From positions 1 through 44,845 of the forward strand of contig JACPYA010000076.1 in assembly GCA_016196295.1 (NCBI GenBank): 44,845 bases of DNA, written 5' to 3'. The translations under genes and the position numbers were made by a program. The notes under the pieces were generated by a model, which saw only the letters and a program-made list of their open reading frames with translations, ran no database searches and was not told where the DNA came from. This document shows, piece after piece, positions 10,823 through 37,903 of the stretch (position 1 is its first letter; every line of letters begins with the position of its first letter). The DNA is from Candidatus Peregrinibacteria bacterium (GTDB taxonomy: Bacteria; Patescibacteriota; Gracilibacteria; Peribacterales; Peribacteraceae).

Positions 10823-12295
10823 CTATCCCTTGATGACTCCGAGCGGCCGGAGCTTGGCGACTTTCAAAGAGATCCCCTCATCATGCATCACCTGCACGAC
10901 CTCGGAGACGTCCTTGTATGCGTGGGGCATCTCTTCGGCAATCGTGCGATACCCGTGAGCGCGTACCTCGACGCCGAAGCGATCCATTTCGTCGCGGAGA
11001 TTCCTCCCTTTGCACGCACGCATCGATGCATGCCTGCTCATGACTCTGCCCGCGCCGTGGCAGCAGCTCCCGAATGTCTCCGTCATCGCCTTCTGCGTGC
11101 CTTTGAGGACGTAGCTCGCCCTCCCCATATCGCCGGGAACGAGAACGGGCTGACCCGTCTCGCGGTAGATCTCCGGCAAGTCGGGATGCCCCGGCGGGCA
11201 TGCGCGGGTGGCACCTTTGCGATGAACGCAGCACATTTGTTTCTTCCCGTTGATCACGTGCTCTTCCTTCTTCGCGATGTTGTGGCAGACGTCATAGACG
11301 AGATCCATGCCGAGCGTGCGATCCGGCATGCGCAGCGTCTCGCGGAACACCTGCCGCACGACATGCATCATCACCTGCCGATTGCTCCACGCGAAATGCG
11401 CGGCAGCAGCCATTGCGGCCCAGTATTGCTCACCTTCGGGCGAATGGAGCGGCACGGAGCAGAGTTCCGGATCGGGCAGCTCGATGCCGTACTTCTCTCG
11501 CCCGATTCTCGTGAATGCATGCACGGCATCGTCGCAGACTTGGTAGCCGAGCCCCCGCGAACCGGAGTGGATGAGGACGGTGATCATGCCTTTTTCGAGA
11601 CTGAATACACGCGCGGCCTCTTCATCGAAGATTTCCTCGACTACCTGTATTTCGAGGAAGTGATTGCCGGATCCGAGAGAGCCAAGCTGCTTGCTGCCTC
11701 TCTGCTTTGCTCTGTCGGATACCGCCGAGGCATCTGCCCACGAGAGGAACCCCTGCTGCTCAATCCGTTCTTGATCTTCGGGTGAGCCGAATCCTTTGCG
11801 AATCACCACGCCGACTCCGCCGTTCAGAATACGATCAACCTCTTCGATACTGAGCGTACCGGCAGCGCCTTCCGAACCGACTCCGGTGGGAATCGCCGCG
11901 AAGAGCGCGACGACGAGGTCGCGCACCTTCGGTTTCACGTCGTCCAGATGCAGATTGCTCCGCATCAACCGCACGCCGCAGTTGATGTCATAGCCGACCC
12001 CTCCCGGCGAGATGACGCCCGTCTCGATATCGGTTGCAGCAACCCCGCCAATCGGGAATCCGTAGCCCCAGTGGATATCCGGCATGCCGAGCGAAACCTC
12101 AAGAATGCCCGGCAAGTACGCGACGTTCTTCACCTGCTCGAGCGCGCGGTCGTGGTCCAGGTCCCCCAGCATTTTTCGGGAAGCGTAGACACGGCCCGGA
12201 ACACGCATCCCGCCTTCCTTGGGGATTTCCCACGAATTTTCCGTGCGTTGTACCAAACGAATACCGCCGATGGCGAGTTCTGAATGTTTCGTCAT
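10823..12295 (-). CDS. rtcB: RtcB RNA ligase
   Basis: DINCGVRL, GSLGSGNHFLEIQ, HSGSRGLGYQV, DVCHNIAKKEEH and SCCHGAGRVMSR all present. Confidence 0.96.
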   Translation of the reverse strand: MTKHSELAIGGIRLVQRTENSWEIPKEGGMRVPGRVYASRKMLGDLDHDRALEQVKNVAYLPGILEVSLGMPDIHWGYGFPIGGVAATDIETGVISPGGVGYDINCGVRLMRSNLHLDDVKPKVRDLVVALFAAIPTGVGSEGAAGTLSIEEVDRILNGGVGVVIRKGFGSPEDQERIEQQGFLSWADASAVSDRAKQRGSKQLGSLGSGNHFLEIQVVEEIFDEEAARVFSLEKGMITVLIHSGSRGLGYQVCDDAVHAFTRIGREKYGIELPDPELCSVPLHSPEGEQYWAAMAAAAHFAWSNRQVMMHVVRQVFRETLRMPDRTLGMDLVYDVCHNIAKKEEHVINGKKQMCCVHRKGATRACPPGHPDLPEIYRETGQPVLVPGDMGRASYVLKGTQKAMTETFGSCCHGAGRVMSRHASMRACKGRNLRDEMDRFGVEVRAHGYRTIAEEMPHAYKDVSEVVQVMHDEGISLKVAKLRPLGVIKG

Positions 12296-12723
12296 AGATC
12301 GAGGGTGAATGTCGCTTTCCAGCCTTCTTGCGTTTGCTTCAACTCCGCCCCGTGGTACGTCACGGCTTTGATCTCGGTTCTGTAGGGATGTTTTTTCCGA
12401 TCGAACCGCTCGCCCGTGAGAGTCGCCTGAATCGAGCAGAGCCAGTCACTGCCGTCGATGCCGAGGAAAGTGATGCGGCAGTCACGCGCGACGAAGCCGT
12501 CATCGTTGAAGAGATCCAGCGCTTTGCGCAGAAAATTGATGAAGAGTTCCTCATCCACTTGACCGAATGCTTCTATCCGCCGCTCGTCCTTCGCCTCCAC
12601 CTTGTCGAGATCCGTGATGGTGGAAAAGAGCGCCTTCGCGGCATCGGCAAAGAGTTCTTCTCTCGTCGCTCCCGTCACGCGGTATCGGATGTCGCCTGTG
12701 TGCGGGAGTTCGGTGAAGGGCAT
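12292..12723 (-). CDS. Archease (RtcB cofactor)
   Basis: FTELPHTGDIRYRVTGATREELFADAAKALF ... VKAVTYHG-like; overlaps rtcB start by 4 nt. Confidence 0.9.
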   Translation of the reverse strand: MPFTELPHTGDIRYRVTGATREELFADAAKALFSTITDLDKVEAKDERRIEAFGQVDEELFINFLRKALDLFNDDGFVARDCRITFLGIDGSDWLCSIQATLTGERFDRKKHPYRTEIKAVTYHGAELKQTQEGWKATFTLDL

Positions 12724-12794
12724 ACGAAATATTCTAGCGGAGATCATGCGGAAAACGTACCCGCGCATGCGCAATGAGCGTACAATGAACTGCA

Positions 12795-13133
12795 ATGCTC
12801 ACATGGACACCTCGCATCCTGGCCATCCTCTACATCGGCTTCATCAGCATCTTCGCGTTCGATGTCTTCGACCAGGGTTACTTCCTATGGGAAACAATTC
12901 TGGCGCTCTTCATGCACCTCATCCCTTCATACATTCTCATAGGTGCGACCGTGCTTGCATGGAAGAGGCCGAAGCTCGGCGGCATAGGGTTTCTCCTTCT
13001 CAGCATTGTCTTCACGCTGTTCTTCAAGACGTATCAAGCTGTCGTGAATTTCACGCTCGTCTCCGTGCCGCTGCTCATCATCGGGGCGCTGTTCCTCGCC
13101 GATGCATCTTTGCGGAGTCGTTTCACGCGTTGA
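12795..13133 (+). CDS. Small polytopic membrane protein, unknown function
   Basis: 112 aa with four hydrophobic segments; TACAAT 8 nt before ATG. Confidence 0.7.
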   Translation: MLTWTPRILAILYIGFISIFAFDVFDQGYFLWETILALFMHLIPSYILIGATVLAWKRPKLGGIGFLLLSIVFTLFFKTYQAVVNFTLVSVPLLIIGALFLADASLRSRFTR

Positions 13134-27699: not shown

Positions 27700-30600
27700 T
27701 CAGGACTTTGCGAGCTCTTTGAATAGTCCTTCGACGGAGAGCAAGTCCGTACGATCTCGATAGAGCGAAATGTTTGGATTCTTGGCAATTCCTCGATTGT
27801 AGAATTCCATGGGTTCCCGCTGCAGTGCCGCGGCCAGACGGGCGAGTCCCTTGTCGTACTGTTCGACGGTGATGTCATCCTCTTGAAGGAGAGCGACACC
27901 GATATCGTCCAAACGGTCTCTCAATTCCTCATAGACTTCGTATCGCGCGAGATCCATCTCGTATCCGTCTGCGATGCCAGGATAATCGGTTGCTTGAAGC
28001 TTCGCTTCCATGCGTTGCAACGGTCCTTGCATGTCACTCAGCAGCATGGCCACCAATTGTTCCAACGCTTGACCTGTTTCCCCGAGCTCGAGTGCCACAT
28101 TGATCTGCAGCACTTTGGCTGCTTGTTCCACGTTGCTCTTGTAATCCTGAAGGAGTTTCCCGCGTTCAAGTTGCTTGTCATCCTTCTTCGGTGGCAAGTC
28201 GGCGTAGATAGCGAGATCAAACTTTTCCGTTTTGCCATCGGCATCCATTCGTCGGTCGATGACCATCGATTCGCCCTTCTCCTGTAATTTTCTGGATACT
28301 GCAATGAGCTCCGCATGACGCAGAGCCGATCGGAATACATCCATGTTCACCGTGTCGAACTGCCCTTGCGTCATCCATCCGATGTACTGGATCTGATCCA
28401 TGACGAGCTGGTCGTACCGATTTTTGAATTGTTGGGGAGTTTCGTCCGGAAGGGCAAGTGGCTTCGTCGTCTTCACCACGTATGCACGACAGAGCTTGTA
28501 TCGTGTCCCGGCATTTTCATTTTCCAGAGCCTTGAAGTTTTCCTCTTCCGCTTTTCTAAATTCATTGCGCGAATAGGTCGCTTTGCGCCAGAGCCATTCT
28601 GCCTGTGTCCCGTATACGATCTTCTGTCCGAATTGATCGAACGTTTTTTCCTGCGAACCCGGTTTCAACTCCATCAGTTTCGCGAGGAGCGCATCCGGAG
28701 ATTTTTTTGCCCAATCTGCCTCCTCCTTCAGCCATCCCCCCGAGGCTTCCTCGAGTTTCTCGTAGTACCAATATGCGACGTAGACCTCTGCGGAGATAGC
28801 GCCGACAGCGAGAGTGGCTCCAGAAGTTACTCCTGTCGCGACCATGGTGCCGATGGTGCCGCCACCAAGCGCCACTTGGGATGCAGATTTGAAATCGCGC
28901 ATGGCATAAAGCTCTTTTAGAGACTCGTTGTCTGTTCCTTCGATACGCGCCCTGTTCATGACGAGCTCGGCCGCGCCCAAGGCAATATCAAAGGAGCCGG
29001 CTGCCGGTCCCAGTGAGCGTCCTGCAAACTTCGCGACGGTTGCCAGTCGCATCATGTATTGAAGGCCGCGCATGCCTCCCGTTCGGATCGCATTGATGAG
29101 CATCTGCAACGCTGGTTTGCACGCATTGAATGCATCCGCCATCCACTGCGGCATGCTGCGGAGCATTCCGGGGATCTCCGGCGCGACATTTTTCACCGCT
29201 CCGAGTACTTCCTGCGTCAGGCGGGTGACGCCGGTGGCATTACTGATAATACGGCCACCTTCAACAGTCATTTTTGCGACATTGTAGGGGGCGATGACGG
29301 GATATTTACCCATCCACAGAGGAAGTCTCGTGTACCATCGATGATGTTGAATGGCGGCGAGGATGCTTTTTTCTGTTCTGAGGGATTGAATGATGCTGGC
29401 AATTTCATGGGGGAGAGCGCCCGAAAGTGTTCGCAGCTCTTTTTCCATTTTTGACAGCTCAGCGAGGTTTCTTGTTGGGCTCTTCAAAAAGTTATGGAGA
29501 ATATCCAAGCCCTGCTGCCCCATTCCTTCTGTAACTATTTTAGCGCGTAACTCGCTGATAAGTGTGCCGGCTCTCTTTTGAATCTCTGCGAGAGCCTGTA
29601 TTTTTGTCAGCTGCTTTCTGAACGTATTAATTTCTCCGGCTGCACTGAGAGATTTTGCAAAATTTTCTGGCAATGTTGCACGTTCATACCAAAATTTCAC
29701 TCCACCAGTCGTTACAAGCAGCGCCAACACAGACGCTGGGATGAATTTATCTGGATTTTCAACTGCCCAATCGAATCCTTCCTGCGCCGTTCCCTTGATA
29801 GCCCCCGCTGTGTTACGAATTCCTTCCGTCGCAACATCCCACACTTTTCCTCCAACCGTTGTGACGATCGTTTCTCCCGCCTGTTGAGCCTCTTGCACCA
29901 CAGCTTCCACCTTTTCGGGGTTTAACTTGTAATACTCTTCTAGCAATTTTCGCACGCCCTCCTTGCCAAGACGTTCTGCGATACGAAATTTTGTCTCCGG
30001 GAACCAGTCGCGTGCTTCTTCGGATGAGACGAAGCGCAGGACCTCCAGCTGCATCATGACGAGACCGATCGGGTTGCCGCTCTGGAGCATCTTGCCATAG
30101 AACGCGAGTCGAACCGCCTGTGCCAGAGGCATTTTTTCAAGGAGGTAGCGGTTTACGGTCTCTCTATTCACCGCTTCGTCCTCTGAAAAGCGGTCATTGG
30201 GGAAAAGTCCGTGGAAGAATGGCAAAATATTCGGAGGATTGTCGCGTATGTGTTCGCAGAGATGGTAGAGCACCTCTTCCGCCGGTTTTGCTGTACCTGA
30301 TGTCATGTGATTTTTTGTTTCTGCATTATTCAAATAACCAAAAGCTGTTCCGGAATAGGTCAGTGAGATGACATCAGCCAAGCTGACATTCTCAAACTGC
30401 GATCGTCCCTTTTTGGTTTTATCGATCACTTTTTGCAGCTCCGCTTTCACAATGGGATCCTGAGTCATCAGGAACTGTTGCTCGATGTTCTTCCACGGTT
30501 CCTCGCTCAAAAACTTCTCACCGTGCAGTTTCGCCTGTTCCAGAATACTTCCAAGCGTCGAGTAGGCTCCGCCTGCTTCTTGCATGAAGCGCTCCAGAGT

Positions 30601-31872
30601 TTCCTCTTCCAGATTTTGCTTCGCGTCCGGACTTCGCTTGTACATCTTCTCCAAATTACTGCGTCTCTGGTGGAAGAATCGCACGACGGCTTCCCCCGCG
30701 ACTAAGTAACTCCGCTGTACTTTGGGATCCGTTGCTTTTTCGTGGAGAGAGAAGAGCCGCGAGAGCGCGTTCTGGTTCACGATGTCGCCATGCATGCAGC
30801 GATAGAGATCGCCGAGCGTCGTCTTCTTGCCGATCATGTCGAAGAGCACATCGGTCACGTATTTGCGTTCCGCCTTGGAGTTTCCCGCAAGAGCGACGAT
30901 GACAGGCGGAAGCATCATGAGTGAGGCGGGCAGCTTTGCTTTCTCCAATTCTTCCTGAGCCCTCTTTGCTGCCCGATTGGCAGGGGTTTGAGGCACTTCT
31001 TGTTCTTTCTTTTCCGCCATTTTCTTCTCGTACATTTCCTGCAGCTTCCGGAGGCCCGCGATCTCTTTCTCGTACGCTTTCTTCTTCCACGCATCCGTCT
31101 CGAGCGCCAGTTTTTGCCGCAGGTCTTCGACGCGAGAGGCGATCGACTGGAGATCCTTGTATTTTTCGGCGAGTTTCCAAATACCAAAGCCGATTCCCGT
31201 CAGCACCGCGCCCGTGAGAACCCACTTGAGGAAAGACCAGGAACTGGAAGCCGCTTCCTTGGTCACCTCTTTCGTTTTCTGCGCGCCCGCCCGCAGCTTC
31301 GAGAGTCCCCATAATGTAAATCCGACGAGAGCGCCGACGCCAGCCACTTTCAAGACGTCACGCACAGTTTCGTTCTTGATGAACGATAGGGTGTTGTCCT
31401 TTGCGACTGTCACCCCCTGCTTCATGACGTCTACACTCTGTCTGACAGCAGAGGATGTCACATCGACGGCAGTGTCCAAGTGCTGTTTTGCTTGATCGAC
31501 GAGTCCTACGGGTGTTTCTGGCCGAATCTTCGTACGAAGTCTTTCGATGTTCGCTTTGGTGCCTGCAATCGTTTGATTCTCTGCCATTGCACGAAGATTT
31601 CTGTCGATCTCCTGACGCTCAATGTCGGGAAGCGTGTTTACGTTCTGCCCGAATTCCTGGAAGAATGCTTCCTGGGCCTTCGGATCAATTCTCTGAATCA
31701 GCGTGGCCAGCTGACGCCCCGTTTCCTGCCGCTGCTCCGGACTTTGTTTTGATTTCTCGGCCTGCAGGATGGTCATCGCTTCTCGCACTTCGGGCGACGG
31801 TCGCAGGTAAGCGAGGCGACGTTCACCAACATGGAAAGGATTGAACCTATGAGGATGAGAGAGGATGAACAT
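27700..31872 (-). CDS. 1390-aa protein of unknown function with multiple membrane-like segments
   Basis: Single long ORF; coiled-coil and Ala/Gly-rich hydrophobic stretches; no family recognised. Confidence 0.8.
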   Translation of the reverse strand: MFILSHPHRFNPFHVGERRLAYLRPSPEVREAMTILQAEKSKQSPEQRQETGRQLATLIQRIDPKAQEAFFQEFGQNVNTLPDIERQEIDRNLRAMAENQTIAGTKANIERLRTKIRPETPVGLVDQAKQHLDTAVDVTSSAVRQSVDVMKQGVTVAKDNTLSFIKNETVRDVLKVAGVGALVGFTLWGLSKLRAGAQKTKEVTKEAASSSWSFLKWVLTGAVLTGIGFGIWKLAEKYKDLQSIASRVEDLRQKLALETDAWKKKAYEKEIAGLRKLQEMYEKKMAEKKEQEVPQTPANRAAKRAQEELEKAKLPASLMMLPPVIVALAGNSKAERKYVTDVLFDMIGKKTTLGDLYRCMHGDIVNQNALSRLFSLHEKATDPKVQRSYLVAGEAVVRFFHQRRSNLEKMYKRSPDAKQNLEEETLERFMQEAGGAYSTLGSILEQAKLHGEKFLSEEPWKNIEQQFLMTQDPIVKAELQKVIDKTKKGRSQFENVSLADVISLTYSGTAFGYLNNAETKNHMTSGTAKPAEEVLYHLCEHIRDNPPNILPFFHGLFPNDRFSEDEAVNRETVNRYLLEKMPLAQAVRLAFYGKMLQSGNPIGLVMMQLEVLRFVSSEEARDWFPETKFRIAERLGKEGVRKLLEEYYKLNPEKVEAVVQEAQQAGETIVTTVGGKVWDVATEGIRNTAGAIKGTAQEGFDWAVENPDKFIPASVLALLVTTGGVKFWYERATLPENFAKSLSAAGEINTFRKQLTKIQALAEIQKRAGTLISELRAKIVTEGMGQQGLDILHNFLKSPTRNLAELSKMEKELRTLSGALPHEIASIIQSLRTEKSILAAIQHHRWYTRLPLWMGKYPVIAPYNVAKMTVEGGRIISNATGVTRLTQEVLGAVKNVAPEIPGMLRSMPQWMADAFNACKPALQMLINAIRTGGMRGLQYMMRLATVAKFAGRSLGPAAGSFDIALGAAELVMNRARIEGTDNESLKELYAMRDFKSASQVALGGGTIGTMVATGVTSGATLAVGAISAEVYVAYWYYEKLEEASGGWLKEEADWAKKSPDALLAKLMELKPGSQEKTFDQFGQKIVYGTQAEWLWRKATYSRNEFRKAEEENFKALENENAGTRYKLCRAYVVKTTKPLALPDETPQQFKNRYDQLVMDQIQYIGWMTQGQFDTVNMDVFRSALRHAELIAVSRKLQEKGESMVIDRRMDADGKTEKFDLAIYADLPPKKDDKQLERGKLLQDYKSNVEQAAKVLQINVALELGETGQALEQLVAMLLSDMQGPLQRMEAKLQATDYPGIADGYEMDLARYEVYEELRDRLDDIGVALLQEDDITVEQYDKGLARLAAALQREPMEFYNRGIAKNPNISLYRDRTDLLSVEGLFKELAKS

Positions 31873-31874
31873 GT

Positions 31875-32075
31875 TTAGTGAGGATTACTAAAAAGAGCGT
31901 TGCCAAACCTCTTGGCAAATCCTGCTGTGCGATTGAGAACAGTCGCACCTGCTGCACCCGCTACATCCGCAACGTCGAAGATGCCGTTGATGCCATCCAC
32001 CGTGTGCGCACGAATAGCTTCGATCCGATTGTGCCGGCCGAAATGTTCCGGTGAGGATGTGGGTGTGAGGGGCAT
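31875..32075 (-). CDS. 66-aa protein of unknown function within the cassette
   Basis: MPLTPTSSPEHFGRHNRIEAIRAHTVDGINGIFDVADVAGAAGATVLNRTAGFAKRFGNALFSNPH; 4 bp after the upstream stop and 2 bp before the downstream ATG. Confidence 0.55.
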   Translation of the reverse strand: MPLTPTSSPEHFGRHNRIEAIRAHTVDGINGIFDVADVAGAAGATVLNRTAGFAKRFGNALFSNPH

Positions 32076-32079
32076 GGCC

Positions 32080-33273
32080 TTATGAAAGGAAGCGCACAAG
32101 ATCGGCGCCGGTATCGTTGCCCTGTTCATCTTTGATCATTTTGGGTTCCTGCGACGTTGCAAGGTGTTCCAAAAATTCACCGACCTTAGAGGCATTGAGA
32201 GATGATTTTTTTGTTTCCGCGAAGATCCAACCACTTCCCGTCACTTCCATTGCTAATTTTTCGCCTGTCCATTCAAGTGCATCGATGGTGATTTTCTTCC
32301 CTGCTGCCTTACCCCGTTTCCCAACGATTGTCCACGTTTTTCCGTTCACGATGATTTTTGCTTTATCTCCATGTGTCTCTATACGATAGGGTTTTCCATT
32401 GAAATTAAAGCTAAATATTCCGCTCAAGAGATCCATGGCAGGCGGGAGATCTTGAGGTTTCTCCGGGGACGCCGCGGGAGGAGGATTCTCGCCTGGCTTG
32501 TTTTGCCCCGCTGTGGCCGGAGCTTTTGGCTGCGGTTTGGGCGCTTCCTGTTTCATGCCATTGACCATCGTGTCAGCCAGAGGAACAAGTTCTTCGACGA
32601 TCAGGTTCGTACGACCGCTTTGATTTTTGATAAATTCAGCGACGAGATCGTTGTAAAAATCCTGCGATTCGTAGCCGGGCCGTTTCGCCTTCGCTTGCTT
32701 CGCATATCCTGTCAGCTTCTCGATCGCAGCGCTGTCGATACTCGGGTCTGCCGGATTGAAGAGCGGCTGGAGCCCGGCATTTTTCAGTGCAGAGCAGAGC
32801 ATCAGCGTATCCATTCCCAGGAACCCCGCGGCCATCGAGACGTAGCTTTCAATACTCTCTTTGAAGAAGGGAATTTTGATTTTCTTCAGTTGATTGACGA
32901 TCGGAGCCAAGTAATAGGATAGCTGATTCTGGAAATAACTCAGCTTTGTGATGAAAGTTTCAAACATTCCCGTAAATCGATCCAAAGTACCCACGACCAG
33001 TCCTGCGGTGGGTCCTGCAACGGTCGAAGCTGTCGCTTCCACTCCAGCTTTCAACGCGGTACCTGCCGCAGTTCCATTCATGCGATTTTCAATGTTCGAA
33101 AGCTGTTGTGCTTGGGTTTTCTTTTCCACCTTTTCACGCTGTCTTCGCGCGTCCGCTTCCACTCGCTCGCGTTCAGCCTCAGCAGGGGGTTTCCGTTGTT
33201 CCTGTGGTGCAACAGATGGCCTTGCGGGAGTGATGTTCGGAGCCTCTGGCGGGGTTTTGTCCGGGGGGGGCAT
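32080..33273 (-). CDS. 397-aa Pro-rich protein of unknown function
   Basis: Pro/Gln/Glu-rich N-terminus, helical hydrophobic middle, Pro-rich linker, small beta-rich C-terminal module. Confidence 0.75.
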   Translation of the reverse strand: MPPPDKTPPEAPNITPARPSVAPQEQRKPPAEAERERVEADARRQREKVEKKTQAQQLSNIENRMNGTAAGTALKAGVEATASTVAGPTAGLVVGTLDRFTGMFETFITKLSYFQNQLSYYLAPIVNQLKKIKIPFFKESIESYVSMAAGFLGMDTLMLCSALKNAGLQPLFNPADPSIDSAAIEKLTGYAKQAKAKRPGYESQDFYNDLVAEFIKNQSGRTNLIVEELVPLADTMVNGMKQEAPKPQPKAPATAGQNKPGENPPPAASPEKPQDLPPAMDLLSGIFSFNFNGKPYRIETHGDKAKIIVNGKTWTIVGKRGKAAGKKITIDALEWTGEKLAMEVTGSGWIFAETKKSSLNASKVGEFLEHLATSQEPKMIKDEQGNDTGADLVRFLS

Positions 33274-33757: not shown

Positions 33758-33763
33758 TATAAT
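33758..33763 (+). promoter_or_regulatory. Consensus -10 TATAAT 7 nt before ATG (predicted leaderless start)
   Basis: gtgctgTATAATgccgcgtATGCAG. Confidence 0.6.
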
Positions 33764-33770
33764 GCCGCGT

Positions 33771-35303
33771 ATGCAGAAAACGATCGCCGCGATCGGTCTC
33801 GCGTTCCTCATGCCTCTGCTCGTCTCCGCACAGGAGGCCGACGATCTTCCCGAAGCGGATGTCGTGGAGGAGTCGGGCGCCATCCGCGCCGTCATTCGGG
33901 GCCCGGAAGATATCGCCGTCGGCCGCACCATCATTTTGGATGCCTCAGCCAGCCGCATCGTCGGCGAGAACGTGCAGTACCGGTGGTACGTGGGGAGTTC
34001 CTTCCAGCCGATCAGCCGCACATTGGAGGCCGTCTACACGCCCGAACAGCCCGGAGCGCTCATCTTTCGCCTGGTCATCCACTCGACGATCGACGGGCAA
34101 GTTCAGGAGTCCGAGACGGAACACCAGGTCATCGTATTTGATCGCAAGATCGTCCTCATCGCCGATCCGGCGATCCCGAAAGACAAGCTGGAGCTCCACG
34201 CGAAGTCGGCGGATGCCGCGGGCGTGTACCTGAAAGTCCTGCAGCCACAGGCGGAGACGACGCCGCTCGGGACGGAAGAGGCGCTCTTCAACCTGCTCTC
34301 GGAACGCACGACCGCGCTCGTGGATGCGGAGGCAACCATCATCTGGACGGATGGCATCGCGGGGCTTCAGGCGCTCATGCGATCCGCCGAGGGCAATCCC
34401 GAGCGCCTCACGTCCATTCAGAATCAGTCGATCATGCTCATCACCGAGCAGAGCCTGCAGACCCTCGCGCGCACGGCTCGCGGACCGTTCTCCATCCTCC
34501 GCCCCCGGCAGATCCTCGTCACGCGTCCGGAAGCCATCCATCCGCTTCTGACAGCGGAAAACATGGAGACGTTCCTGCAGGAGTTGATCCAGCGCGACAT
34601 CGGCCACCTCATCGTCGATGCGACGACTGCGGGCGTTCGCCCGTGGAACCTGCTCTCCTCGCTTGTGAACTACATGCTCACGCACGGCGTCTCCAGCCAG
34701 ACCGTCATCCTCCTTCTCGTGCTCCCGATCATCGCGACGATCCTCGCGTTCATGAAACAGGTGATCGGCATCACGACCTTCGGGCTCTTCGCCCCGTCCA
34801 TCGTGGTGCTCAGCTTCCTCGTGCTCGGGTGGTGGGTCGGCGTCATCTTCCTGCTCTTCATCCTCTCGACGGGGTATGTGACGCGCATGTTCATGCGCCG
34901 GTGGCGCCTCCTCTATATACCCAAGGTCGCGATCATCCTGACCGTCGTCAGTATCACGCTCCTCCTGTTGCTCGGCCTCGGCGCGTTCTACGGCATCGCG
35001 TTCAACCGCGACACGGTGTTCGTGCTGCTCATCATGTCTACCCTCGCGGAGAGCTTCTTGAACTTGAAAACGGAGGAAGGGTGGTACACGGCGGTGCTGG
35101 AAGTGGGGGAGACGATCCTCGTCGCGCTCCTCTGCGTGTTCATCATCCAGTGGCCGTCATTCCAATCGATGCTGCTCGCGTATCCGGAGCTGATCCTCCT
35201 CACGATCGTCGCAAACGTCTTCCTCGGACGGTGGACGGGACTGCGGATCGTGGAATATTTCCGATTTAGAGAAGTGTTCCGCCATCTTCAGGAGGAGGAA
35301 TGA
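33771..35303 (+). CDS. Signal-peptide protein with PKD-like N-terminal domain and 7TM_transglut-type membrane domain
   Basis: C-terminal ..FIIQWPSFQSMLLAYPELILLTIVANVFLGRWTGLRIVEYFRFREV matches the 7TM domain usually fused to inactive transglutaminases; N-terminal IILDASASRIVG..YRWYVG. Confidence 0.75.
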   Translation: MQKTIAAIGLAFLMPLLVSAQEADDLPEADVVEESGAIRAVIRGPEDIAVGRTIILDASASRIVGENVQYRWYVGSSFQPISRTLEAVYTPEQPGALIFRLVIHSTIDGQVQESETEHQVIVFDRKIVLIADPAIPKDKLELHAKSADAAGVYLKVLQPQAETTPLGTEEALFNLLSERTTALVDAEATIIWTDGIAGLQALMRSAEGNPERLTSIQNQSIMLITEQSLQTLARTARGPFSILRPRQILVTRPEAIHPLLTAENMETFLQELIQRDIGHLIVDATTAGVRPWNLLSSLVNYMLTHGVSSQTVILLLVLPIIATILAFMKQVIGITTFGLFAPSIVVLSFLVLGWWVGVIFLLFILSTGYVTRMFMRRWRLLYIPKVAIILTVVSITLLLLLGLGAFYGIAFNRDTVFVLLIMSTLAESFLNLKTEEGWYTAVLEVGETILVALLCVFIIQWPSFQSMLLAYPELILLTIVANVFLGRWTGLRIVEYFRFREVFRHLQEEE

Positions 35304-35420: not shown

Positions 35421-37808
35421 ATGCTCCCATTTTTCTCATCACGCGGCGTCCTCGGATTGAATGCGCGCAATCTGCTCTACATCAAGCCGTTCAATCCCCG
35501 CAAAGCGGTCGCGTTCGCGGATGACAAACTGAAAACGAAGGCATTCCTCGCGGCGCGCGGCATTCCGGTTGCGAAAATCTACGCGAAGATCGAGACCCGG
35601 GCACAGCTTCAGGCGTTTGATTTCGCTGCACTCCCCGATGAGTGTGTCCTGAAGCCAAACTACGGTTTCGGCGGCGAGGGGATTTTGATCCTCAAAGGAC
35701 GCAAGGACGGGGAGTTTCTGGTCCAGGGCAAGAAGCCGATCTCCGATCTCGAGCTCCGCGAGCACATCGAGGACATCCTCGACGGAAAATTTTCCATCAG
35801 CGGGCGAGCCGACACCGCCTTCTTCGAAAAAATCCTCGTCGCGGACCCCGCATTCGCGCCCTTTCGACCCACGGGACTGCCCGACATCCGCATCGTCGTC
35901 TTCAATCTCGTGCCGATCATGGCGATGATCCGCATTCCGACCGCGCAGAGCTCGGGCAAGGCCAATGTCCACCTCGGGGGCATTGGCATTGGCATCGATA
36001 TTGCAAAAGGAGTCACCACCCACGCGACGCAGTACAACAAGATCCTCAAGGAGCTGCCGCACGGCGGTTCCCCCGCGGGCATCGCGATTCCCCGCTGGGA
36101 AGAGATGCTTCTTATTTCCTCGCGCATCCAGCAAATCACGAACATCGGCTACCTGGCGGTCGATCTGACCCTCGACGCCGACCAGGGCCCGGCGCTCCTG
36201 GAGGTCAATGCGCGCGCAGGACTGATGCTCCAGGTCGCGAATCTCGCGCCGCTTCGGTCGCGCCTCGAACGGGTGGAAGGATTGAAGGTCAGCTCACCGG
36301 AGAAAGCCGTGCGCATCGCGCAGGATCTTTTCGGCGAGAAAGTGCGTACGCGCAAAGAAGAGGAAGGCGGACAGAAGCCGCTCCTCGGCACGCGCGAAGT
36401 GATCGTCATCTCCGGTGCGGGCGTGACGATCTCCGTGCCGAGCATCATCGCTCCGTACGAAGAGCGTTCCGTTTTCTCACCCGATCTCGTGGAGGAATTG
36501 CGCAAAGCGAACGGGCTCGACGTGGAAGACGAAGAAGAGGGGACATACCGCGTGAAGTTTTCGCTCGCGGGCAAAAAGATCCAGACGCTTGTGCACGAGG
36601 GCACCGTTCCGGTTCCCTCCGCTCGCGCGCTCATCGGGCGCCGGGACCTCTCCGGGTTCCTCATCGATCCCGTGAAGGAGACGAAGCATTCGCTCGTCGG
36701 CCTTGCGGTGCGGGAAGATCTCCGCGCGGTCGATAACGTGCTCGCCATGGCCGACAGGGCGCTTCTGCCGCTGAAGCAATTGAAGCCCACGAACCTGCAG
36801 GAGGAGCGCCAGAAAGCGACGAGCGACCGCGCCTACAACCCCGTCTTCAGCTTCCCGCCGCTCCCCGAAAACATCGACGAGCTCGAACAGCGGCTCTCCG
36901 GCCTCGTGCCGGATGACACGCCGCTCGGGATCCTCTTCCAGAAGAAGAGGCGCGAACTCCTCACGCGCATCTCGCTCTTCCGTGCGCGTGGCAATGCCGT
37001 GCGGTTCACCGAAGCATCGCTCTCGCTCTACGGCTCTCCGAGCGCGGTCCTCCTCTCCCATGCCGCCGCAGTGCTGCGCTCACGGATCGCGTGCGACCTC
37101 CCCGCGAGCGAAGGAAAAGTCCTGGATGCGGCCGCCGCCTCCGTGCGCTTCGAGCAAGCACTGGAGCAGTACGGCCTCCACGAGTGGCAGGTGCAGGTGC
37201 GGCCCGGCGTCGTCTCCGACTGTACCGTGGGGCGCAAGCGCGTGTACCTGCGGCAATCCGCCACCTTCACCCAAGCGCGTCTGGAAGCGCTGATCGCGCA
37301 TGAGATCGAGACGCACGCGCTGACGCAGGTCAATGGAGACCATCAGCCTTTTGAACTCCTGCACATCGGCACCGCGAACTACATGGATACGCAGGAAGGT
37401 CTCGCGATCTATAACCAAAACGCCGTGCTCTCGCCGCATCACGACAAGCGCTACGATCCCGCGAAGAACGTCCTCGCCGTGGCGTACGCGCTTGACCACT
37501 CCTTCGCGGATGTCCGCCGGTACCTGGAAGAAGGGCTCTCCTACGCTCCCGACGCGGCGCTCATGCGCGCGATCCGCCTCAAGCGCGGCATGGGCGACAC
37601 GTCCGAGCCCGGAGCGTTCACGCGTGACATCGTCTACTTCCGCGGGTTCCGCGCGGTCGAACGCTTCGCGGAAGAAGGAGGGGATTTGAAACGTTTGTAT
37701 GTGGGCAAAGTTGCGGTGGAGGATCTTCCTCTTATCGAGCAGATTCCGGGGTTGAAACAACCGCTCGTGCTGCCGGAGTTTTTGAGAATGGCGAAGAAAG
37801 GCAAATAG
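35421..37808 (+). CDS. Fusion: alpha-L-glutamate ligase-like ATP-grasp + degenerate pepsin-like (Zn_protease/RimB-type) domain + QEGLA/DUF1704 metallopeptidase
   Basis: GVLGLNARNLLYIKPFNPRKAVAFADDKLKTKAFLAARGIPV..VLKPNYGFGGEGI..LEVNARAGL; ALIGRRDLSGFLIDP; LIAHEIETHALT (HExxxH) and MDTQEGLAIYNQ. Confidence 0.85.
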   Translation: MLPFFSSRGVLGLNARNLLYIKPFNPRKAVAFADDKLKTKAFLAARGIPVAKIYAKIETRAQLQAFDFAALPDECVLKPNYGFGGEGILILKGRKDGEFLVQGKKPISDLELREHIEDILDGKFSISGRADTAFFEKILVADPAFAPFRPTGLPDIRIVVFNLVPIMAMIRIPTAQSSGKANVHLGGIGIGIDIAKGVTTHATQYNKILKELPHGGSPAGIAIPRWEEMLLISSRIQQITNIGYLAVDLTLDADQGPALLEVNARAGLMLQVANLAPLRSRLERVEGLKVSSPEKAVRIAQDLFGEKVRTRKEEEGGQKPLLGTREVIVISGAGVTISVPSIIAPYEERSVFSPDLVEELRKANGLDVEDEEEGTYRVKFSLAGKKIQTLVHEGTVPVPSARALIGRRDLSGFLIDPVKETKHSLVGLAVREDLRAVDNVLAMADRALLPLKQLKPTNLQEERQKATSDRAYNPVFSFPPLPENIDELEQRLSGLVPDDTPLGILFQKKRRELLTRISLFRARGNAVRFTEASLSLYGSPSAVLLSHAAAVLRSRIACDLPASEGKVLDAAAASVRFEQALEQYGLHEWQVQVRPGVVSDCTVGRKRVYLRQSATFTQARLEALIAHEIETHALTQVNGDHQPFELLHIGTANYMDTQEGLAIYNQNAVLSPHHDKRYDPAKNVLAVAYALDHSFADVRRYLEEGLSYAPDAALMRAIRLKRGMGDTSEPGAFTRDIVYFRGFRAVERFAEEGGDLKRLYVGKVAVEDLPLIEQIPGLKQPLVLPEFLRMAKKGK

Positions 37809-37815
37809 GACGAGG

Positions 37816-37903
37816 AAAATCAGAGTGGGCATACCTGCCCGCGGATCATAAAAAAATCATGAACAATAGAATCCGCGGGGTAGTAACCCCGCTCTGATTT
37901 TTC
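37816..37903. terminator. Cloverleaf-like bidirectional terminator between convergent genes
   Basis: AAAATCAGAG..CTCTGATTTTT outer stem; GGGCAtaccTGCCC; GCGGAT..ATCCGC; GGGGtagtaaCCCC. Confidence 0.65.

Follow-up and report, generated by a model that had tools for sequence, protein, structure and literature searches.

A conserved patescibacterial protein combining an RloC-type ligase, a degenerate retropepsin and a MATCAP-type carboxypeptidase

Introduction

The rlo operon of Pseudomonas is tied to hypoosmotic stress and affects stress tolerance and antibiotic sensitivity. Its retropepsin, RloA, cleaves runs of at least eight glutamates, is inactivated by the substitution D48N and needs R114 for polyglutamate cleavage (PMC12239564). 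Deletion of either rloB or rloC rescues the loss of RloA (PMC12239564), implying that the product of RloB and RloC is what RloA takes away or works against.

The Rim system is described in another study (PMC11957791). There, RimK synthesises free poly-alpha-glutamate in vitro and in vivo, and it also lengthens RpsF. RimB cuts poly-alpha-glutamate, raises the ATPase activity of RimK fourfold through direct contact, and is needed for efficient poly-glutamate synthesis by RimK. The same study reports that a RimB-RimK hybrid from Desulfotalea is active and cleaves glutamylated RpsF.

Eukaryotic members of a further family, MATCAP, remove the tyrosine of tubulin and also polyglutamate, and relatives of human MATCAP are deglutamylases (PMC10499314). 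Bacterial QEGLA genes of this family are also found beside other enzymes connected with glutamate. In Photobacterium damselae, a GshB-annotated gene and a QEGLA gene with adjacent tags (A0J47_RS17020 and A0J47_RS17025) are up 38- and 27-fold at low salt, and RimK is also up (PMC10308900). In Shinella, genes for an N-formylglutamate amidohydrolase, a QEGLA protein (TIGR02421) and a glutathione synthetase-like ATP-grasp protein lie in a row, and in Vibrio the amidohydrolase and QEGLA are fused. The parallel between QEGLA induction at low salt and the hypoosmotic association of rlo is circumstantial. To our knowledge, neither RloC nor the bacterial QEGLA proteins have a described activity, substrate or acceptor.

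Results

The window (the whole stretch of 44,845 nucleotides analysed here) comes from a member of the Peribacteria within the Patescibacteria. At 35421-37808 (+) it contains one uninterrupted open reading frame of 795 amino acids, in which an ATP-grasp ligase, a dead retropepsin and a MATCAP domain follow one another. The AlphaFold model, made with an alignment of 51 relatives, has a mean pLDDT of 87.4; its low-confidence stretches (residues 1-15, 307-317 and 422-431) are the N-terminus and the two domain joints. A Foldseek search with the whole model returned human MATCAP as the top match (7z5g, E 1.2e-10), followed by ATP-grasp ligases including RimK (5zct, E 5.3e-8). The initial annotation had placed a ligase and a carboxypeptidase on one chain with a pepsin-like domain between them, and this description stands: profiles and the model recover an ATP-grasp domain, a RimB/RloA-type retropepsin fold and MATCAP, and the catalytic residues of both enzymes are conserved.

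The ligase domain (residues 7-307; 35439..36341, +) is of the RloC type. It matches TIGR02291 over its full length (residues 7-307, E 1.1e-76, 257.8 bits, below the equivalog cut-off of 314.2 bits) and PF14397 at residues 16-286 (E 5.6e-59), in agreement with the alpha-L-glutamate-ligase-like ATP-grasp domain originally proposed. The ATP and metal ligands, whose integrity had been singled out as decisive, are in place; K40, K78, E136, D155, R157, K180, D248, E261 and N263 are conserved in at least 50 of the 51 relatives. One fused protein on a very long branch (L061:4380-6896, genome G063, family f8) has lost its ATP-grasp ligands, with R, G and S at the positions of K78, E261 and N263; in this case the ligase, not the eraser, seems dead.

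The C-terminal domain (residues 448-792; 36762..37796, +) is a predicted zinc metallocarboxypeptidase of the MATCAP/QEGLA (DUF1704) family. It matches PF08014 at residues 469-775 (E 1.1e-51, 176.4 bits against a cut-off of 27) and TIGR02421 at residues 448-792 (E 3.7e-56, below the equivalog cut-off). Since the TIGR02291 and TIGR02421 matches both stay below their equivalog cut-offs, the matches settle the families but do not establish orthology with the proteins of Proteobacteria. The HEIETH and QEGLA motifs noted earlier are those of the family: H627, E628 and H632 of the zinc-binding and catalytic HEIETH (residues 627-632; 37299..37316, +) and both the third zinc ligand E659 and G660 of QEGLA (residues 658-662; 37392..37406, +) are invariant in 51/51 relatives. 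The C-terminal half also aligns residue by residue with human MATCAP (KRGxxDTSxPGxF). With the MATCAP/TMCP tubulin carboxypeptidases (7z5g; PMC10499314) it shares a homologous zinc carboxypeptidase domain, HExxxH and the E-G motif, although the domain in the window is bacterial, ligase-fused and without tubulin. Some genomes of the class contain a second, standalone MATCAP-like protein of about 340-490 amino acids (L081-L086, L058 and L060); these are divergent paralogues, and most of their host genomes also hold the fused form.

The middle domain (residues about 318-418; 36372..36674, +) is a retropepsin fold of the RimB/RloA type by homology, as the initial annotation had suspected. The window's own domain has no match in Pfam, where it does not reach the PF05618 cut-off. 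When its profile was compared with 12 RimB/RloA sequences by hhalign, the match reached 94.7% with 39 rows and 94.2% with 51 rows and the window placed first; as controls, none of 20 column shuffles exceeded 3%, and the reversed profile scored 0.7%. Modelled in isolation (pLDDT 83), the domain has RloA of Pseudomonas as its best PDB match (9g58, E 4.9e-5). Another RloA structure (9g59) is among the best, and Ddi1 retropepsins, RloA2 and a Legionella DUF785 protein also match. Relatives outside the class reach the PF05618 cut-off at the same place and join the middle-domain and RimB/RloA profiles at more than 99%. Searched against the sequences of the PDB, the middle-domain profile matched nothing but acetyltransferases at E about 0.1, which we regard as chance, and a match to RNA polymerase was set aside for the same reason.

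What marks a working retropepsin is gone from this domain. An alignment of the fused, split and RimB/RloA domains has APYE (residues 344-347; 36450..36461, +) in place of the catalytic DTGA, whose absence from the expected position had been pointed out before. The domain also lacks the segment around the conserved Arg-Pro, and neither equivalent of the polyglutamate-binding arginines R114 and R137 of RloA is arginine. These equivalents were placed by spacing, as both D48/R114/R137 in P. aeruginosa RloA and D29/R95/R118 in the Legionella protein lie at +66 and +89 from the Asp. No separate RimB/RloA gene (PF05618) was found in 96 related genomes.

The gene immediately upstream, at 33762..35303 (+), ends 117 bases before the fused gene and encodes an RloB-like membrane protein of about 513 amino acids (PF14402, E 9.7e-25). 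A signal-like N-terminus and a periplasmic domain without a recognised family precede its 7TM_transglut domain. A consensus scan placed a bidirectional terminator-like hairpin 3' of the fused gene (37875..37892, either strand), consistent with a two-gene unit ending there. Further upstream, on the opposite strand, are two large genes of 1390 and 397 amino acids (27700-33273, -), the latter without a Pfam match above cut-off. At 10823-12795 (-), judged by eye, an RtcB RNA ligase gene is followed by an archease-like gene, with an overlap of a few bases.

Among the 96 related genomes, 75 have both MATCAP (PF08014) and RloB (PF14402), 17 have neither, four have MATCAP only and none has RloB only. 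The pair is hence kept or lost together in 92/96 (Fisher p 1.9e-15, relatedness ignored). Because the 7TM RloB-like gene co-occurs almost without exception, the fused protein is not the self-contained cycle that was first envisaged. A same-strand RloB lies within 600 bp at 44/61 fused and 71/77 split loci, often overlapping. The genomes with neither gene are scattered across many genera, and two of them that were re-examined (G023 and G059) have no part of the fused protein at all, as would be expected if the unit was lost whole. On a plasmid of Halobacterium sp. DL1, an unannotated ORF of 584 amino acids (L093:4164-5918) fuses 7TM_transglut (RloB) to an RloC-type ATP-grasp domain, an archaeal sign that RloB and the RloC-type ligase act together.

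We also searched other genomes for the architecture, as had been suggested. The order of three domains in about 800 amino acids recurs throughout the class, in dozens of independent genomes and loci, with few exceptions outside it. It extends to code-25 Gracilibacteria, in which TGA is read as glycine, and 79 of the 96 related genomes carry MATCAP, the best of them within frames of about 800 amino acids. A frameshift or assembly error joining two genes, raised as a concern in the initial annotation, is excluded by the recurrence of the fusion in unrelated assemblies, dozens of independent genomes in all. At one locus (L049:3654-6345) the fused gene appears as two overlapping frames, probably through an assembly or sequencing frameshift. 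The fused protein is a real, widely conserved and new arrangement of known parts. We found no description of this three-domain fusion in open-access papers. A 2009 survey of amidoligases reportedly discusses such neighbourhoods, so that an earlier mention is possible. Outside Patescibacteria, the check for the fusion covered plasmids only.

Across the phylum, the full profile was matched in 127/384 Patescibacteria. Outside the class, ligase and a complete retropepsin form one protein of 430-500 amino acids, and MATCAP is encoded by its own gene; the four exceptions, which are fused, are G314, G361, G339 and G354. The separate MATCAP gene can overlap or lie close by on the same strand; in family f40 it is on the opposite strand at a distance of a few kb; at other loci it was not found in the stretch read, and some of these genomes have one elsewhere.

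The state of the retropepsin follows this arrangement. D[TS]G is intact wherever MATCAP is not a neighbour on the same strand, at 66 of 66 loci sampled: 52 with no MATCAP in the stretch read and 14 with a distant or opposite-strand one. Ten loci have a neighbouring MATCAP on the same strand, leaving out an eleventh row (L049, the fused gene broken by a frameshift); DTGA is retained in five of them and replaced by NTG or NTS in the other five. D[TS]GA occurs in none of the 66 fused rows, among which the window is counted two times, and D[TS]G in three. The equivalent of RloA R114 is kept in 50/52 loci without MATCAP in the stretch, vs 3/66 fused rows.

A quick tree search on the ligase domain (113 rows), which left many forks open, has two changes of fusion state and loss of the motif in three lineages: the clade of the class, L139/L140 (DTSR) and f60/f152 (Asn, with MATCAP abutting or overlapping). 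The Asp-to-Asn change in f60/f152 is the one shown to inactivate RloA (D48N). Each of these lineages has an abutting or fused MATCAP. With only three lineages showing loss, an independent-pairs test cannot reach significance (p 0.25-0.5), and since DTGK and DSGE variants occur inside the class, the motif there decayed gradually or was partly regained. The association of MATCAP with retropepsin decay is therefore suggestive rather than proven. Nor is the swap obligatory, as an intact retropepsin persists in at least five lineages with a neighbouring MATCAP.

Set beside the RloABC operon of P. aeruginosa (PMC12239564), the locus in the window has the same components in neighbouring genes: an RloB-type 7TM protein, an RloC-type ATP-grasp ligase and an RloA-type retropepsin, the last only as a dead domain rather than a separate, secreted and active protease. 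In contrast to Pseudomonas, ligase and retropepsin here form one chain without a signal peptide before the retropepsin, MATCAP has been added, and RloB has no detectable inactive transglutaminase domain. RloA of Pseudomonas is periplasmic, whereas the fused domains must share one compartment, so the analogy is not exact. The Desulfotalea RimBK hybrid (PMC11957791) likewise joins a retropepsin and an ATP-grasp glutamate ligase in one polypeptide, but in reversed order, with a ligase of the RimK rather than the RloC type, an active protease, and neither carboxypeptidase nor RloB. The Shinella genes also place a MATCAP-family peptidase next to an ATP-grasp ligase; they and the Vibrio fusion differ in the ATP-grasp family, in the separate ligase gene and in having an amidohydrolase instead of retropepsin and RloB.

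Discussion

We propose, at slightly better than even odds, that the locus belongs with the Rlo/Rim poly-alpha-glutamate system as a Patescibacterial variant: the task of removing glutamate would have passed to a carboxypeptidase, with a dead retropepsin left in place. Together with the adjoining 7TM protein RloB, the RloC-type ligase would extend an acceptor chain at the membrane by adding amino acids to its end, and these are most likely glutamates. In its ancestral form, the ligase would have come with a RimB/RloA-type retropepsin that was active and cleaved the tail of glutamates. A MATCAP/QEGLA zinc carboxypeptidase then probably became fused and took over removal, residue by residue, after which the retropepsin would have lost its catalytic Asp, a segment of the flap region and the polyglutamate-binding arginines. 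It could have been kept as a structural or ligase-activating module, retaining the other role of RimB. The use of glutamate, the acceptor, reversal on a single substrate and the role as activator are inferred; addition of glutamate by the ligase, its removal by MATCAP and activation by the dead retropepsin come from the RimK/RimB, RloA and MATCAP literature taken together. The binding module suggested in the initial annotation fits: the catalytic motif is gone, and a binding or regulatory role is the most likely one for the middle domain. The stricter form of the proposal, a one-polypeptide writer and eraser of oligoglutamate in which an aspartic endopeptidase was exchanged for a zinc carboxypeptidase and the dead protease activates the writer, is tentative, and we would sooner expect some part of it to fail.

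Alternatively, the target of both enzymes could be a free peptide or small molecule rather than a protein, such as an envelope precursor, the tail of a cofactor or free poly-alpha-glutamate; RloB would then export or anchor the product, and MATCAP would trim or recycle it. This would suit the free poly-glutamate made by RimK in vitro and in vivo (PMC11957791), the membrane location of RloB and its direct fusion to the ligase in Halobacterium, and the QEGLA genes found with N-formylglutamate amidohydrolase and a GSH-synthetase-like gene in Shinella or fused to the amidohydrolase in Vibrio; no protein acceptor is indicated either. Yet it does not by itself explain a carboxypeptidase on the same chain, and RimB and RimK also modify RpsF, leaving it a possible reading on which we would not rely. 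It also seems odd, if MATCAP were merely tethered to the ligase and RloB while processing something unrelated, that fusion arose on two branches of the tree, that the genes overlap elsewhere and that the retropepsin decays only beside a fused or abutting MATCAP. A mostly structural fusion of this kind would account for family f40, where MATCAP is kilobases away on the other strand, and for the five lineages with an active-looking retropepsin beside MATCAP, but we find it very improbable.

The initial annotation favoured a cycle resembling tubulin tyrosination. In the form considered here, a single amino acid other than glutamate would be put on and taken off the tail of a protein. Human MATCAP does remove the C-terminal tyrosine of tubulin, and the alignment with it covers the C-terminal half. 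However, the ligase groups with RloC and RimK rather than with TTL, and the ancestral partner belongs to a family of poly-glutamate endopeptidases. The tail of FtsZ, the nearest counterpart of a tubulin tail and the one candidate examined, gave no support as a substrate, the C-termini of 28 FtsZ genes being alike with and without MATCAP. With RimK, RimB and RloA acting on poly-alpha-glutamate and eukaryotic members of the C-terminal family removing polyglutamate, an oligoglutamate product is the more economical and, by analogy, more likely one; tyrosine in particular finds no backing here, and tyrosination-like chemistry is, in our view, very unlikely to be correct.

Returning to the poly-alpha-glutamate variant that we prefer, the fusion suggests that the RloB, RloC and MATCAP/QEGLA parts work on the same chemistry, and it names a function to assay, the ATP-dependent addition and removal of glutamate by one protein. 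It also yields the testable prediction that a dead protease has been kept as an activator. For a family that trims tubulin tails, it provides a bacterial setting. If the proposal is true, an eraser was exchanged in the course of evolution, and its replacement is homologous to the tubulin deglutamylases of eukaryotes.
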